Positions 2,045 through 63,958 of a DNA stretch of 64,000 nt are shown piece after piece; position 1 is the stretch's first letter, and each line of letters opens with the position of its first letter. The translations under genes and the position numbers were made by a program. Origin of the DNA: Aureobasidium sp. EXF-3400 (Eukaryota > Ascomycota > Dothideomycetes > Dothideales > Saccotheciaceae); contig SWBL01000180.1 of the NCBI GenBank assembly GCA_024195585.1, positions 1 to 64,000 of the forward strand, written 5' to 3'. The notes below the pieces were generated by a model that was not told the DNA's origin, did no database searches, and was given only the letters and a program-made list of their open reading frames with translations.

Positions 2045-4595
2045 ATGGCGCCGAAAGCGGAACAGGGAGGACAACAAACAGGGCAGAAGCGCAAAGGAAA
2101 CTCGACAGATGGCGGAGGCTGGCGCAACAAACGACAGAAGACGCAGCGCGACGCTCGCACACTGGCGGTGCAAACAAGCTCCAAGGCCTTCAAAAATGGA
2201 GAGCTCGACGTAGGAGCCTTTGTCAAGGCGCGCGAGTATGAGATCCGAGCACTCGAGGAAGGCATGGCTCGAGCCAGAAAGGGCCTTACGCAACGAGCTT
2301 TCCAACAAGTGCCCAAAGACTTGAGACGCAGGACGGCCAGTCACAATGCTAAGAGAGTACCCAAGAGACTGCGCCGTCAGGCCGTGCGAGAGGTTGGTCG
2401 ACTCGACATCCTGACGTGGCAAGGCTAACACGAAACAGATGGCCGAGGACAATACACCAACCGTAACATCGCGCCGACGTAAGCCGAGCGGCCATATGCG
2501 TCTTCGCATCGACACCGTCAACCGTCTACGAACCCTCGGCCGCAAGAACAAGCTGTCGCCTGACCAGGGAATCGTCGCCAGGTCGCTCCAGCCCAAGAAG
2601 AACAAGCTCGCCTCTCCCCCTGTGCCCAAGGCAAAGTATCGCAAACGTCAGATCCACAAGACCTGGCTGCCCACACACATGTTTCATGCGAAACGAGCCC
2701 ACATGACTCCGCCATCTCAACCTCTCTGGCGCTTTGCATTGCCCTTGACATCAACTGTCAAAAGCTATCGTCCCACTCATCGTGCGAGTATAGACCGTGG
2801 TGCTATTGCTTGGGACACAAGCTACATGTCCACAGTCTCTATACACGGTAATGAGCAGAGCATAGAATCCTTGTGTCGTGCCTTGGGCGCTGGCTTGTCA
2901 GATGCCGCCTGGACCCCACGAGGCCAGAGGTGGAGACAAGGCTCTCGTACATGGCAAGGTTGGCTGTATGAGCGTGACATGTATCCTACTCACCCGATAG
3001 CTCCTGCCACAATTGTCTGGCGAGCAGAACCGACATCTCCTGCAAAGCAGTCTCGCCAGATTCTCATTCGTATTCATCCATCAGCTTTCTCTCAGCTCTG
3101 GGACGAGCTCACCCGACTCGTCAAGATCCAGAAACCTCAACTAACTGTTGAAGATCTGCGTTTCGAGATTGGAAGTATCGAGGTTGCGGGTCCTGCCTCA
3201 ACCGAAGCTTTAACGAGTGCTCTTTGTCCTGTGAATACTAGCAAAGGGGACAAGACATCCGCTGAGAAGCATTGGCCATTGTTAGCAGGCGTACAAACTC
3301 CATCGGCTTTGCCTGCAAATGCTCTCCTCGCTTTCGATATATCTGATCCGCGACTACATCACCCACCCCGAACTGCATCTTCAGCTACTGAGACACAGCA
3401 ATCCCAAAATCAATTGCTTGAATTGCTAACAGAATGGCCTTTTGACATTGCACAAACAACGCCAGGCATTTTCGACTGTGCAAGAAGACAAGCATGTTGC
3501 CGCGCATTGCAAAGCCAGAAAAATATTAACCGCCGCAAATCCGCTGCCACGCCAGGTACCTATCCTGAAGCTCTGCCTCAAGACCCTCGCATCCCCATCA
3601 TGGCATTCCCGTCCCCGGCCATCCCAAGATCGAAGCCAGGAAATAAAGAACGTACTTCTTGTTCGTGGATTGTTCTTTTGCCATGGAAAACAGTCCCTGC
3701 CGTTTGGCAGAGTTTGATGTACTATCCCATATCGACCGGCGGGCAGGTGAGAATGGGAGGTCTGGAAGAGCAACGCCAAATCGCCTTCGAGACTGGCGTG
3801 CCTTGGTTCCCCGGTGATTTTCCGGGCACCAAGGCGGGCGATCTCTGGGAGGCTTCAGAGAGTGCCAAAAGAAAGGCGCAATGGGAAGCAAAACCCAAAG
3901 GAAAGAGGGTCGAATGGGACAGTGTCACATTGGGTCCTGGCAGGAAAGGTGAAGATGGTAACGGATGGGCTTGCGACTGGATCTACTGCTCTGAAAGCAC
4001 AACAGATGAGACGGATGATGCTACGTCGAAGATTCATCACATCGCTCCAAGTCTCGCTCGGAGCGTGATTGCTGGTCAGGCCACTTCCATCGAACGTCTA
4101 CCCTACGCTCTCTCTACTGTCCGCATCACTCTGCTCGGACGCGGGACACCTGAATTTTGCGCACGAATCTACCGCTTGCCGGCTGTACATGGAACAGACA
4201 AACTGTCATTGCGCGATCAGTGGCTCGCCCTCGACCCAGCTCGAACAAGTTCTTGCACCCAGAAGAAGAAGCGCCAACGAAGTTTGCCATCATCTGCATT
4301 GAAGTCGACTTCCCCAGCCGATGTGCAACGACAATTGGCTGCCGACTTGTTGCAACCTCCCCAGTCCGATAACCAGCATGATTGCTGCCCCCCAATTCCT
4401 GGTAAAGAAGACCTCATCGGCTTTGTCACAAAAGGTGAGTTTAGTCTGACTGAAGGCCGAGGTGTCGCTATCGGCAGTGTCTTCGTCCAGGCTCTCACCG
4501 AGGCCGTCAATGCCACTGATAAAGAGCCATACATTTGCATTGTCAGGAACGCTGGAGAAACAGTGGGCAGACTCGGGAGGTTGGAATTCGTGTAG
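2045..4595 (+). CDS. POP1: Ribonuclease P/MRP protein subunit POP1
   Basis: Model join(2045..2392,2439..4595), 834 aa. POP1 is the largest protein of nuclear RNase P (tRNA 5' maturation) and RNase MRP (pre-rRNA cleavage), where it scaffolds the RNA. The N-terminal POP1 region is clear: AREYEIRALEEGMARARKG and RAFQQVPKDLRRRTASHN at about residues 60-105, then WLPTHMFHAKRAHM near 190. A POPLD domain follows at about 520-620, from WIVLLPWKTVPAVWQSL to WFPGDFPG. The C-terminus carries the conserved IGFVTKGEFSLTEGRGVAIG block and RLGRLEFV end. The 46-nt intron lies after AVRE (codon 116) with donor GTTGGT, a GGCTAACA branch-like site and acceptor CAG. Length and domain order match fungal POP1. Confidence 0.95.
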
Positions 4596-23155: not shown

Positions 23156-23160
23156 AAAAA
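23156..23160 (-). terminator. RNA polymerase III terminator of the tRNA-Gln gene
   Basis: A run of five T on the minus strand lies 16 nt past the 3' end of the tRNA. This is the usual position and form of a pol III stop. Confidence 0.7.
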
Positions 23161-23200
23161 TTATGTGACACTGATGAGGTCGTACTGGGGCTCGAACCCA

Positions 23201-23251
23201 CTAGGGTATGTTAGACATTGCTCAGGTGGACCAATTATGCCTGTAACTTAC
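23201..23251 (-). other. 51-nt GT-AG insert in the tRNA T-stem, spliceosomal-intron-like
   Basis: On the minus strand it starts GTAAGTTAC, has GTCTAACATACCCTAG at its end, and is 51 nt long. Donor, branch-like site (TCTAAC, about 10 nt before the end) and acceptor equal those of the protein-gene introns in this window. The boundaries needed to restore the T-stem are exactly the GT and AG boundaries. Confidence 0.8.
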
Positions 23252-23262
23252 GGACTCAAGAA

Positions 23263-23276
23263 GATTTGATTACTCA
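23263..23276 (-). other. Canonical tRNA intron (14 nt) in the anticodon loop
   Basis: It lies between tRNA positions 37 and 38, the standard site cut by tRNA-splicing endonuclease. It starts TGAG and ends AATC. Confidence 0.8.
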
Positions 23277-23313
23277 TCAAAATCTTGCGTGCTAACCACT
23301 ACACTATACAACC

Positions 23314-39703: not shown

Positions 39704-40188
39704 AAAACTGTCGTAAGGGTGAATGTGAGAGAGGGAATGACCGAGCCAGCAACAAGTGGTTCAGTCGGTCGCAGTTTGGGGGCGCTTTTTGATCTTGTCG
39801 TTGTGCTTGGGAGAAGTGGTTTCTGTTCCAAGTCCGTGTTTGGTGAGGGGCAAATCCCACTGAGGTCACTCCGCCGTTCTCTTTTGTCACGCTGTGGAGA
39901 ACACAGTGACCAGACACTCGCTGTTCATTGCCCAGACCATAGACACACAAGTTTCGAGATCAAAGAATAAGTGAGGATATTCACTCCATACATCATCACT
40001 AAATTTGGTTGTCTTGGTTCAAAGAATTCTGCCTTATGAAGTATCTCCATGGAAAGGGAGCTCTCAATATACAAAGGGAAAAAAAGCGACGCCTGTGTTG
40101 GTATATTTGAACAAACGAAAAAGATATAGCAATGAGTAAAAGTATGAATTAAAAGTCGACTGTGTTGTAGCCCAATCCGGGTCGGTTC
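39704..40188. other. Intergenic, F-box gene promoter and SYF1 3' flank
   Basis: 485 bp; an A-rich run near 40077-40086 lies on the SYF1 side. No gene recognised. Confidence 0.4.
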
Positions 40189-42692
40189 TCATATGTCATC
40201 GTCGACGTCGATGGCATCCGGATTGGCTGCTGGTTGCACGACAGGCGGGGCTCTGTTGCCGCCTTCTGGTCCACTGCTTGCAGCAACGAAACCCGTGGGG
40301 GCGCGGGCCTGGCGCTCCAAGGCCGCCATAGCATCTGTTTTTTGCGTAGTGTCGTCAAGGTGTCCATCTTCAGCCGGAGCTTGCTGACTACGTGCAATGG
40401 CCTGAGAGGCGATGAAGCTGACGTCGGTACTAGAAGATGGTCAGTAATTGATGAAGATCTTAGCACATGCGACACGTACTTGTACTGTGCTTGGACGCTG
40501 CGCTTGATGCGGAGCATATCCTTGAAGGTGTCTTCGTTTCCATGCTGCACCTCGAAACTCTCCCACTTCTGCCAGAAGCCCGGCTCTCTTCTTGGATCAC
40601 AAAATTGGCTGGCATGTCCGTAGATCGCTCTGGCACGATCAATCTCTCCCAATCGTCTTTCCATCTCGGCAAACTTGAGACACATGTCTTTCGCTTCGCT
40701 GTCTGGCAATGCAGCGATAGCTCGCTCGTAGATCGAGCGAGTTGAAGTAAGGCCAAAGTTGGAGGCCGATTTGGTGATATAGAAGTTGAACATGTCCAAA
40801 CGATCCTCATCCGAAACAGCACGCGTTGCCCGTTCGTAGATACGCATAGCATGACGAGCCAGCCCACGTTCTTCCTCTAGCTGGCCATACATAAGATATA
40901 GCACCTTGGCGAACTTCGGAGGACATCCTTCAACGGCCTGCTCGAAAAGATCTCGTAACCTCTCGATGCTGATCTTCCGGTCGACTGCCTTTTGGAGGTA
41001 AAGATTCCAGAGTTCGAAAGCCACTGGGTATGAGAAGAGATCAAGCCCACGTTCGTACACCTTGAATGACTCCTCAAAGTATTTGTTCTCTTCGAGTAGA
41101 TTGGCGTAGTTGACAACAGTCTGAGGAGTAGCGATGCGTAATTCGAAGATGCGCTCGTACACCTTGCGAGTCTCGTCCAAGGTGCTGACGGATTCGACAA
41201 GATCAACGTAGAAAGACCATAGCTTCCAGCTCTTATGTACTCGTTGTTGTGGACTTAGAGTTTCATCGAAGTAATCAACTGTGCTTCGTTTGGGTGCCTG
41301 AGTGGCCTTTGCCATAATATCAACGGCGCGATCGAAGTTCTCGTTGCGCAGCTCCATCTCTGCCCATTCGACCCACATCTCAGCGAGTTCGTTTACGGAC
41401 TTGAAAGGTACCTTGACGGCCTTTTCCATAATGACCCTGGCATTGCGTAGATCGCCACGTTCCTCGTAGAATTTCGCATAATTGGTCCAGAGAGTATGGT
41501 ACCTACCAATAGCTTTCTTGGGGTTGATTGCAGCAATGGCGTTAGTATAAGTGTTGACAACTTCGGGCTTGTTATCGCCCCAAAGCGCGACCCGTTTCTC
41601 CCACTCATTGACGCTGTTGGGATTTTGTCGGAGTAAAACGTCGTTCAGGAGGAAGGGGCGACGATCCATGAGTTGCTCGAAGCGCATCATGCGGATGTCG
41701 AGTTCAAGATCAGCATTCTCATCAGGCGTGCCCTTTTCGGAACGGGTCTGGGCCTCATCCATTTTGATACCAATCAGCGCTTCCTCCGCTTCTGCGTAGG
41801 TGTCAAAGACAATGGAGAAGTCACGCACAGTCATGACGGTGGTGATGCCTTCTTCAAAAACGTCTCTTGCACGCTCATAATCACCCTTGTTGATCCAGTA
41901 TCGGGCGAGGCCTACCCACAGGATACCCCTCTGATCTGGAAAGCGTTGTATGCCACTACGAACTATGCGGTCCACATCGATACCGGTATCTTCACCTGTT
42001 TGTACCTGGCGAGCGTGGTCGATGATGAGCTCTAACATGTCAGTCCAGAATTGGAAGGGGCCTTTAGCTTCTTTGCTGCGGAAGCGCGGATTGTTGAGGA
42101 TGTCCATGTATTTAACGACGGCATCTGTGTATTGTTTCTGGTCGATGAGGATGTCGATAAAGTCTTCGGCGTGCTCGGGGTGAATCTGCATGTAGCGGCG
42201 CCAGACCTTGATGGCTGTTTCGCCCGAGGCAGATGTGGCGAAAGGGCGGTAGAGGGCCCATATCCGGTTGTGCTGAGTGATGGGGAGGGCTCGTAGGGCG
42301 CGATCGAAGGTGCGACGGGTCTGGGTAATCCTGGGCTGCTTGCAGAGGAAGGATAGGTACATTTCCCAGATGCGGGGCATTTTATTGAGAAGAACCAGGG
42401 CTCTTTCGAACAAGGCGTTGACCTTTTGGAATTCGTCTGCATGGCGGGCAGGATTGCGGTTGCGCAGATGGCTCACGCGCAGATCCAGATACAACTTCCA
42501 TAGCTTGTAGCTGCGTGGAAGGGCATTGCAGGCGCGTTCTAGGACAAAGGCCTGATCGAGGAGCGAGCCGGTCTGACGTTTGAAAGAAGCATAGTCGAGC
42601 CAGGCGCGGATGTTGGCCGGGTTGCGCAGAATGTCCTGCTCGTAGATAACATCGTTGTCGGTGACAAGATACAGATGCGAAGCTGTCGACAT
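40189..42692 (-). CDS. SYF1: Pre-mRNA-splicing factor SYF1
   Basis: Model complement(join(40189..40429,40480..42692)), 817 aa. SYF1 (human XAB2) is a scaffold of the Prp19/NTC complex in the active spliceosome. The protein starts MSTASHLYLVTDNDVIYEQD and is built of HAT repeats (for example NIRAWLDYASFKRQTGSLLD, RIWEMYLSFLCKQPRITQTR, NEWEKRVALWGDNKPEVVNT). The 50-nt intron near the 3' end (donor GTACGT, acceptor TCTAG) joins QAQY-K-Y-N to TDVSFIASQAIARSQ, the conserved SYF1 C-terminus. Reading straight through gives an unrelated tail, so the intron is needed. The protein ends in an acidic DAIDVDDDI. Confidence 0.94.
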
Positions 42693-43017
42693 GTCGAGGG
42701 AGATACACGCACGTCGTAGCGGGCCTACTGACGACGGCGGCAATGGCGACAGGGGCAGCGAAGAGCGAAATGCGACAACAGCGCAGTCGGAATCAGATTG
42801 GCGAGACAAACAGCTGGTTGCTGCGAGCTGCTCTCTAATTTGATAACTCGACTTTTGGACTTTCCAGAGCGAGCAGCTGCCCAAACTCGCGCGCGCCTTG
42901 GCGCTTTCCCCGAGCAACGACCAACGTCATGCAGCCAGCGGCCATACCATACCAGCCGCTCTCTGATAGACCACTCTCGCTTCCTCGTACATACACATTC
43001 GTCAAGCAGTCGACAAC
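42693..43017. promoter_or_regulatory. Divergent spacer, SYF1 / VMA8
   Basis: 325 bp between the divergent start codons, serving both housekeeping genes. Confidence 0.45.
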
Positions 43018-62278: not shown

Positions 62279-62527
62279 GCTGAACTCTAGCATGAGCGAT
62301 GACTGTTTTTCAACTAGAACTGCTTACCGAAGATAAATTCTGAACAGATGCTTCAATTTGATAGCATGTGACAAGAGAGCAAAATATTCAATTGAGCAAT
62401 GTTATTGTCGTGCTTCAATTGTGCAGCAAATTCCAGCCTCTACCAAAACCCCGCCATCTGAAGCTGCATCGATACATACCAGTTCGACTTGAGCGACAAT
62501 ACCACACCAAATCTCGCGTCGCCCTCA

Positions 62528-63958
62528 ATGTCGCTTTTACCTGGCCTGTCCCTCTCGGCGCCATCGACGGCGACACCACAACCGGACGCTGCGTCGCATG
62601 CGCCTCCACGAACCGAAGAGCTGCCCGCGCGCTCAGAACTACGTTTCGAGGTCGCTTTCGCCAAATCATACCGCATCCGCCTAGTACGAGGAACAGCAGA
62701 AATCTTCGGCAGCGAGCTAGCGCCTAGTACGACCTACACTTTCAGCGGAACAAAAGGCGCCGTCTTCACGTGGCACGGCTGCACCTTGGAGCTGCAGGGC
62801 GAGGTCGACAGCGAATATGTCGGTTCCGAAACAGAGGCCATGGTGGAATGGCTGAACGTCCACGGCATGCTCGAGACAGCGCGCGACGATGCTGGGATCG
62901 GCAGGGACAGCAATGGCGGTCCTCGCGTTCTGATCGTGGGCCCTGATGATAGCGGAAAGACAAGTTTGCTCAAGTGCTTAACGGCATGGAGCTTGAAGAT
63001 GGGAAGGACACCGACTGTCGTCAACATGGATCCGCGCGAAGGCCTACTTAGCATCCCCGGCAGTCTGAGTGCAGTCACAATGGGCAGCATGCTGGATGTT
63101 GAAGATGGCTGGGGAAGCAGTCCGGTTTCTGGTCCTACTGGAGTGCCTGTCAAGACACCACTGGTCTATCATTTCCCTTTTGCGTCTCCCGAAGAGAACA
63201 CGCGCATGTACAAGCCTCTGGTCACACGCGCTGCTCTGGCTGTTACAAGCAGACTCGAGGAAGACGACGAGGCAAAGCAGAGCGGCATCATCATCGACAC
63301 ACCTGGAAGTATCAACCAACCAAAAGGCGGCTACGATCTCCTCATGCATATCATATCAGAGTTCAGCATCAATGTCGTTCTTACACTAGGCTCGGAGAGA
63401 TTGTACAACGACCTGTTACGCAAGTTCGCCAGCCCCAAAAGCTCCGATGATGTGGTTCACGTCTTTCGCATATCAAAATCAGGCGGCGCCGTGGCCAGAG
63501 ATGAGTCACTTATGCGTCAAGCTCGTCAGCAACAAATTAAGAACTACTTTTTCGGCGATAGCAGGACATCACTGAACCCGCACGGTCAGTGGTGGGACTT
63601 TGGCGATTTGACTGTCTACAAGGCAGTGGATCCTTCGGTATCACACGCACAGTCGTCTTTCATGCCTGGTATGGATTATGATGACGAGTCAGCGCCTGGT
63701 CAAGGTCCTACGACATCGCTGGAGAAGGTGACACCGAGTCAAGGAATGGTCAATGCAATCTTGTCAGTCAAGTTTTGCTCGGGAAACTCGTCACTGGACA
63801 ACGTGCGCGACAGTTGTGTCATGGGATTTGTTTACGTAGCTGAGGTGGATGAAACCAGGAAAAAGGTACGATTCCTGGCACCGCATCCCAGCAGGTGGGG
63901 CGATCGAGCATTGGTTTGGGGCAACTGGCCTGAAGGCGTTGGCGATTTGGTTGCATAG
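62528..63958 (+). CDS. CLP1: Polyadenylation factor CLP1
   Basis: Single exon, 476 aa from ATG 62528 (MSLLPGLSL...); the frame is open a little upstream but without an ATG. CLP1 is a P-loop protein of cleavage factor IA in mRNA 3'-end formation; its mammalian homolog has RNA 5'-kinase activity. Visible: ELPARSELRFEVAF N-terminal domain, TAEIFGSELAPSTTYTF, the P-loop VLIVGPDDSGKTSLLKCL, VNMDPREGLLSIPG, IIIDTPGSINQPKGGYDLL and the C-terminal MGFVYVAEVDE domain. The P-loop has Asp-Asp-Ser before GKT, as in fungal CLP1. Length matches yeast Clp1 (about 445 aa) with a short N-terminal extension. Confidence 0.93.
   Translation: MSLLPGLSLSAPSTATPQPDAASHAPPRTEELPARSELRFEVAFAKSYRIRLVRGTAEIFGSELAPSTTYTFSGTKGAVFTWHGCTLELQGEVDSEYVGSETEAMVEWLNVHGMLETARDDAGIGRDSNGGPRVLIVGPDDSGKTSLLKCLTAWSLKMGRTPTVVNMDPREGLLSIPGSLSAVTMGSMLDVEDGWGSSPVSGPTGVPVKTPLVYHFPFASPEENTRMYKPLVTRAALAVTSRLEEDDEAKQSGIIIDTPGSINQPKGGYDLLMHIISEFSINVVLTLGSERLYNDLLRKFASPKSSDDVVHVFRISKSGGAVARDESLMRQARQQQIKNYFFGDSRTSLNPHGQWWDFGDLTVYKAVDPSVSHAQSSFMPGMDYDDESAPGQGPTTSLEKVTPSQGMVNAILSVKFCSGNSSLDNVRDSCVMGFVYVAEVDETRKKVRFLAPHPSRWGDRALVWGNWPEGVGDLVA

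Follow-up and report, generated by a model that had tools for sequence, protein, structure and literature searches.

Can a spliceosomal intron reside in a working nuclear tRNA gene? According to excerpts of PMC3978253, nuclear tRNA introns are found exclusively at position 37/38, with the exceptions of C. merolae and a nucleomorph. In the stretch of DNA analysed here (64,000 nt, hereafter the window; its contig is referred to as C180) the T arm of a tRNA-Gln(UUG) gene is interrupted by a short insert that carries the signals of a messenger-type intron. Comparison of the gene copies gives good support for reading this insert as a spliceosomal intron within a genuine tRNA gene.

The interrupted gene in the window

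On the minus strand, positions 23313-23177 gave the only match of the window at the Rfam gathering thresholds, a tRNA match with 33.9 bits and an E-value of 0.0027. Read on its sense strand, the gene (23177..23313) has the acceptor stem GGTTGTA/TACGACC, the anticodon TTG and the T-loop TTCGAGC, and it contains two introns. The segment 5' of the T-arm insert (23252..23313) comprises the 5' strand of the acceptor stem, the D arm, the anticodon arm with an intron at 37/38, the variable loop and C49, the first base of the T-stem. The insert is 51 nt long (23251-23201), starts with GTAAGTTACAGG and ends with CTAACATACCCTAG. Within it we located the putative 5' splice site GTAAGT (23246..23251), a branch-site-like CTAAC (23210..23214) and the putative 3' splice site TAG (23201..23203). 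The 3' part of the tRNA (23178..23200) provides the T-stem from nt 50 onwards, the T-loop with the B box and the 3' strand of the acceptor stem. It is followed by TTTTT, resembling a Pol III terminator, at 23156..23160; all of these features lie on the minus strand.

A preliminary description of this DNA had claimed the 51-nt insert with its GTAAGT...CTAAC...TAG signals and the restoration of the T-stem CTGGG/CCCAG upon excision, and both claims hold. ARAGORN called no tRNA in the raw window; with the T-arm insert removed it reported a tRNA-Gln(ttg) with a 37/38 intron, given as i(39,14). This second intron is an ordinary 14-nt tRNA intron (23276-23263, minus strand) that pairs with the anticodon in a bulge-helix-bulge-like (BHB-like) fold, and it had been missed. 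The place of the insert also needs correction: it had been put between the variable loop and the T-stem, whereas it lies inside the T-stem, between C49 and T50 in standard numbering. A group I or group II self-splicing intron can be dismissed, as the inserts described here measure 51-56 nt compared to a catalytic core of several hundred nt, and Rfam reports nothing other than the tRNA.

The window also encodes POP1 (RNase P/MRP), SYF1 (a splicing factor) and CLP1, according to Pfam, at 2415-4592 (+), 40152-42926 (-) and 62462-63955 (+), respectively. The presence of these RNA-processing genes near the interrupted tRNA is probably a coincidence.

Copies of the gene and the empty site

The host genome assembly comprises 53.4 Mb in 717 contigs. 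Named Aureobasidium proteins share 93-96% identity with the SYF1 protein of the window, and the YVC1-like channel encoded there matches four A. melanogenum records at 94-97% identity. A search of the genome with SYF1 gave two strong hits, on C180 and C182 (90% identical), and three weak ones. Excerpts of PMC9535773 give the haploid size of A. melanogenum as roughly 25 Mb and report diploid hybrids. As the assembly is about twice that size and contains two strong SYF1 matches, we take the genome to be Aureobasidium-like with two diverged subgenomes, either hybrid in nature or composed of two related genomes that were mixed.

We searched this one assembly, the only fungal DNA compared, for further tRNA-Gln(UUG) genes by a DNA search and with a D-arm pattern allowing up to 3 mismatches (38 places), so that all counts are lower bounds. 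There are at least six copies. Five of the six found carry an insert at the identical site in the T arm, with lengths of 51 nt (C180), 55 nt (C256), 53 nt (C534), 56 nt (C201) and 53 nt (C182). The sixth, C106, is uninterrupted: GAGTCC is joined straight to TGGGTTCGA, and the copy keeps its own 37/38 intron. Such a 37/38 intron is present in all six copies, each of which also has TTTTT less than 50 nt downstream. Based on 1.5 kb of flanking sequence the copies form three homeologous pairs: C180-C182 with 75% identity, C256-C534 with 77% in the best stretch and 67% in another, and C201-C106 with about 81.5%. Copies that belong to different pairs resemble one another only in the tRNA region and up to about 35 nt more. 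Since the flanks of C201 and C106 are homeologous, C106 represents the exact empty site of C201. The same signals at five of the six found copies and an exact empty site in the sixth argue that the T-arm insert is not a chance feature.

ARAGORN called none of the five interrupted copies in their raw form and all five as tRNA-Gln(ttg) with a 37/38 intron after the inserts had been spliced out in silico; tRNA finders can thus overlook such genes. For comparison, 12 loci from the D-arm search were called as tRNA-Gln(ctg), all 12 of them intronless. The mature tRNA is identical in four of the six copies. In C201 positions 28 and 42 changed together from G-C to A-U, a compensatory change, and C180 has the same A28-U42 pair plus a change at nt 16 (U16). 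The pair 28-42 is therefore A-U in two copies, both of them interrupted, and G-C in the other four. The features of a functional tRNA gene are present: an intact cloverleaf, A and B boxes and a terminator, with boxes and terminator judged by eye against the known consensus. A search for relatives of the interrupted gene with one pattern gave no matches in the viral and none in the prokaryotic collections, which is expected for a fungal gene.

These observations bear on whether the interrupted copies work at all. They could be defunct, each disrupted by an inserted sequence, with C106 and other tRNAs doing the work, and both the one intact copy and the failure of ARAGORN on the raw interrupted copies would fit such a scenario. 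However, the mature parts of the five interrupted copies, spread over two subgenomes, differ by only 0-3 changes, two of which form the compensatory stem change, whereas their inserts diverge. The T run has been kept as well, and so has the BHB-like fold of the 37/38 intron in four of the five interrupted copies; over all six copies a scan run without a shuffle control found this fold in five, with a 3-bp central helix in C201 and a weak result for C534. The conservation of the exons contradicts a pseudogene reading, and we regard dead genes as very unlikely. The related possibility that all functional tRNA-Gln(UUG) stems from uninterrupted copies fits poorly with five interrupted copies among the six found, though the lone uninterrupted C106 could still supply some of the tRNA.

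Splice signals and the splicing machine

All five inserts start with GTAAGTT, contain CTAACA at a constant distance from their end and finish with YAG. These are the characteristics of a U2-type intron: GTAAGT conforms to the U1-pairing GTRAGT in 5/5 inserts, a CTRAY-type branch site is located shortly before YAG in 5/5, and precise removal restores the gene, as illustrated by the junction of GAGTCC and TGGG at the empty site. The interiors of the inserts show a mean pairwise identity of 0.56, compared to 0.50 for shuffles. Seven of the ten pairs exceed about 97% of the 2415 pairs among 70 control stretches (genomic GTAAGTT..CTAAC..AG, presumed introns), whereas the remaining three, including the homeologs C180-C182, do not reach this level. 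The likeness is somewhat inflated because the signals and the trailing A after CTAAC are common to all inserts. With near-identical mature parts and diverged interiors, conservation thus extends to the tRNA and to the splice signals, and the remaining sequence is free to drift.

In the genome as a whole GTAAGTT..CTAAC..AG occurs at 331 places compared to 99 for the reversed pattern, an excess that would be expected if this is a working intron type. The preliminary description had stated that the insert has the same signals as the protein-gene introns of the window, and this is only approximately right. In the YVC1-like gene, whose intron borders we placed by eye against a protein alignment, the four introns that we read start with GTAAGA, GTAAGT, GTTTGT and GTTCGT and end with YAG. 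GTAAGT and YAG thus do occur, but the starts vary and the branch sites resemble CTGAT or CTGAC rather than CTAAC.

The signals point to the spliceosome as the excising machine. The competing candidate is the tRNA splicing endonuclease, which would cut an ectopic intron of the archaeal or red-algal type at a bulge-helix-bulge. Ectopic introns of this kind are known from a red alga and a nucleomorph, and many of those in the nucleomorph lack a defined BHB (excerpts of PMC3978253). We scanned the borders of the five T-arm inserts for the structure that the endonuclease uses, two 3-nt bulges and a 4-bp helix, and found nothing consistent across the copies. C180 and C534 have no BHB; C256 and C201 show isolated 4-bp pairings that shuffling reproduced in 215 and 254 of 500 cases, respectively. 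Partial pairing was observed in C182 (3-bp helix, score 7), which 70 of 500 shuffles equalled. What the five inserts have in common instead is GTAAGTT, CTAACA and YAG, none of which the tRNA splicing endonuclease is known to require. An ectopic endonuclease intron is a shade less probable than the dead genes considered above. Least probable of all is that the signals, although of mRNA type, belong to an overlapping Pol II transcript in which the tRNA sequence is incidental or from which it is processed, given how little the copies share outside their homeologous pairs and the TTTTT downstream of each gene.

The original proposal of a spliceosomal intron in a working tRNA gene thus draws support from conserved signals around a diverged interior, from the empty site and from the U6 introns described below, and we infer its excision in the cell. 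Our main reading, to which we give a probability of roughly 0.9, is that the T-arm insert is a U2-type spliceosomal intron in a functional nuclear tRNA-Gln(UUG) gene. The whole gene would be transcribed by Pol III, directed by the A and B boxes and ending at the T run. Excision of the GTAAGT..CTAAC..YAG intron by the spliceosome would restore the T-stem, and the 37/38 intron would be taken out in a separate reaction by the tRNA splicing endonuclease and ligase. The T-arm intron may have arisen by a single gain in an ancestral tRNA-Gln(UUG) gene, or it may have spread among the copies; it would then have come to occupy at least three loci across the two subgenomes, and one copy would have lost it precisely. 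An exchange between this intron and that of the U6 snRNA is possible.

U6 introns, known systems and further tRNA genes

We identified at least two U6 genes with the Rfam U6 model (47 of 3461 candidates were scored), at C230:57241-57342 and C246:43952-44051, with introns that extend past the Rfam match. Both are interrupted after GGATG, by 56 nt in C230 and 54 nt in C246. The introns have the form GTGAGTTCGA..CTAAC..CAG with a GTGAGT start and are followed by ACACATGC and a T run. Near the start of the intron we noted GTTCGANCC, a B-box-like word that overlaps the 5' splice site; in S. pombe U6 a B box is likewise located inside the intron. The precedent of an mRNA-type intron in a Pol III transcript, to which the preliminary description had appealed, is found in the same genome. 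Because both U6 genes found contain such introns, it is very likely that the spliceosome handles Pol III transcripts in this organism and that it does so routinely.

One of the T-arm inserts resembles these U6 introns. The comparison of the C256 insert with the C230 intron resulted in z = 6.4 with the splice signals held fixed and z = 5.3 with the first 14 nt fixed as well (0 of 5000 shuffles in each case), and in a score of 26.5 compared to a maximum of 16.0 among 97 control stretches. For the C246 intron the values were z = 4.4 and z = 1.7, the latter with 308 of 5000 shuffles, and the score of 20.5 was close to the control maximum of 19.5. As the C201 insert scored 24.0 with an unrelated control stretch and control pairs reached up to 22.5, the likeness between C256 and C246 alone is not conclusive. 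Among the ten comparisons of tRNA inserts with U6 introns C256 alone stands out; the other four inserts (eight comparisons) gave z values of at most 2.3 in one analysis and 2.5 in another. Furthermore, the pattern AGTTCGANCC..TAAC..AG occurs at 15 places in the genome, compared to 103 for the reversed pattern, and three of the 15 are the two U6 introns and the C256 insert. It is likely, judging by this resemblance, that the U6 intron and the intron of this one tRNA copy have a shared origin or were recently exchanged, in either direction. U6 spliceosomal introns are thought to arise by reverse splicing (excerpts of PMC10484740), and in view of the similarity, the idea that introns are gained by reverse splicing into RNAs made by Pol III can be put to the test.

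There are several known systems to which the T-arm intron can be compared. Canzler et al. in 2016 are said to have described mRNA-type introns in the U6 snRNA genes of fungi (S. pombe), likewise spliceosomal introns in a structured RNA transcribed by Pol III. The case studied here differs in its host, a tRNA that also needs the tRNA endonuclease, and in that the intron breaks a cloverleaf helix. Rogers et al. in 1993 reportedly found an mRNA-type intron in the nuclear 18S rRNA genes of some fungi. Both are messenger-type introns in a nuclear structured RNA gene, but that host is an rRNA, a Pol I transcript, and here it is a tRNA. Fungal U3 snoRNA genes contain GT..branch..AG introns whose presence may differ between paralogues (excerpts of PMC5832005), and the tRNA-Gln(UUG) copies share both properties. 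According to the same excerpts, frequent interruption by an intron was known in 2017 for only two small structured RNAs, U3 and U6; tRNA is not named there. The ectopic introns of Cyanidioschyzon merolae and the Guillardia nucleomorph lie outside 37/38 as well (excerpts of PMC3978253). Those of C. merolae are BHB-based, whereas the T-arm inserts have full spliceosomal signals and no consistent BHB. From the canonical 37/38 introns, which all six copies also possess, the T-arm intron differs in position, signals and predicted enzyme. Among the open-literature papers listed in searches on spliceosomal introns in tRNA and on ectopic nuclear tRNA introns, none reports in its title or abstract a spliceosomal intron in a nuclear tRNA gene; most subscription papers fall outside this scope. 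As a type of mechanism, spliceosomal action on a Pol III transcript has a precedent in U6; the tRNA as a class of host and the requirement for double splicing appear new. If the main reading is true, one small RNA of a black yeast-like fungus, encoded by interrupted genes in 5/6 of the copies found, matures via two unrelated splicing machines. A tRNA that needs both systems would demonstrate that tRNA transcripts are substrates of the spliceosome and would couple translation to the capacity for splicing.

To look beyond tRNA-Gln(UUG) we ran three B-box-proximal pattern searches, which returned 65, 8 and 13 places (reversed-pattern controls: 15, 1 and 4), and applied ARAGORN to 40 of the 65 loci. 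No further T-arm case was found among the matched strings. Candidate inserts at other positions were encountered in three tRNA genes. The first is a tRNA-Pro(CGG) gene (C92:88514-88696) with an 82-nt GTGAGT..CTAAC..CAG insert at 26/27. Once the insert is taken out, ARAGORN recognises a tRNA-Pro(cgg) whose 37/38 intron measures 28 nt, and a tRNA-Pro(AGG) gene on C153 has the same 26/27 junction with no insert. The insert contains a diverged copy of the 5' half of its own tRNA. About 140 nt downstream, at C92:88838-88907, there is an inverted partial copy of the Pro gene with 97% identity. The second candidate is a tRNA-Arg(UCG) gene (C343:21550-21800, minus strand) with a 51-nt GTAAGT..ACTAAT..CAG insert at 8/9. 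It is uncalled by ARAGORN when raw and called as tRNA-Arg(tcg) with a 34-nt 37/38 intron once the insert is removed, with three G-U pairs in the resulting acceptor stem. C405 contains a similar gene in which we saw no insert of this kind and which ARAGORN likewise does not call. The third, a tRNA-Ala(CGC) gene (C140:15146-15291), is interrupted in the D loop by 55 nt of the form GTAAGC..CTAAC..GAG. Its raw ARAGORN call includes a misplaced 60-nt intron; after excision the call becomes tRNA-Ala(cgc) with a 19-nt 37/38 intron. The weaknesses of this candidate are its poor 3' site and a C6-C67 mismatch in the acceptor stem. For neither the Pro nor the Ala gene did a search reveal a further copy (2 candidates scored). 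We regard these three inserts, each in a single gene, as leads and not as proof.

A wider reading, which we put forward tentatively and rate slightly below an even chance, is that spliceosomal introns are transferred among genes transcribed by Pol III. The introns of tRNA-Gln and U6 would then go back to one source, with reverse splicing from either one into the other, and as many as four families of nuclear tRNA would have acquired such introns: Gln-UUG at 49/50, Pro-CGG at 26/27, Arg-UCG at 8/9 and Ala-CGC in the D loop. Most of the supply of one glutamine tRNA would require the spliceosome as well as the tRNA endonuclease.

The pattern searches also yielded matches of other kinds. The match on C455 was rejected, as it contains no tRNA on inspection and looks like a protein-gene intron, and the one on C61 is a complex tRNA-like gene. 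Three tRNA-like genes, L072 (C12:215992 region), L062 and L066, are interrupted in the anticodon arm by inserts of some 70 nt or more. L072 is possibly a tRNA-Cys (GCA), and its insert looks like a long hairpin before the anticodon. These inserts are perhaps endonuclease-type ectopic introns or tRNA-derived elements. The short hairpin word CTTGCAAACACAAG is repeated in the inserts of different tRNA-like genes, namely L026, L062, L066 (one exact, one with 1 change) and L100 (twice). Another word, GAAGCCTC, recurs in mRNA-type intron-like stretches at C1:384460, C21:97001 and C25:93254 and in the tRNA-Ala insert of C140, and it is possibly an introner-like repeat.
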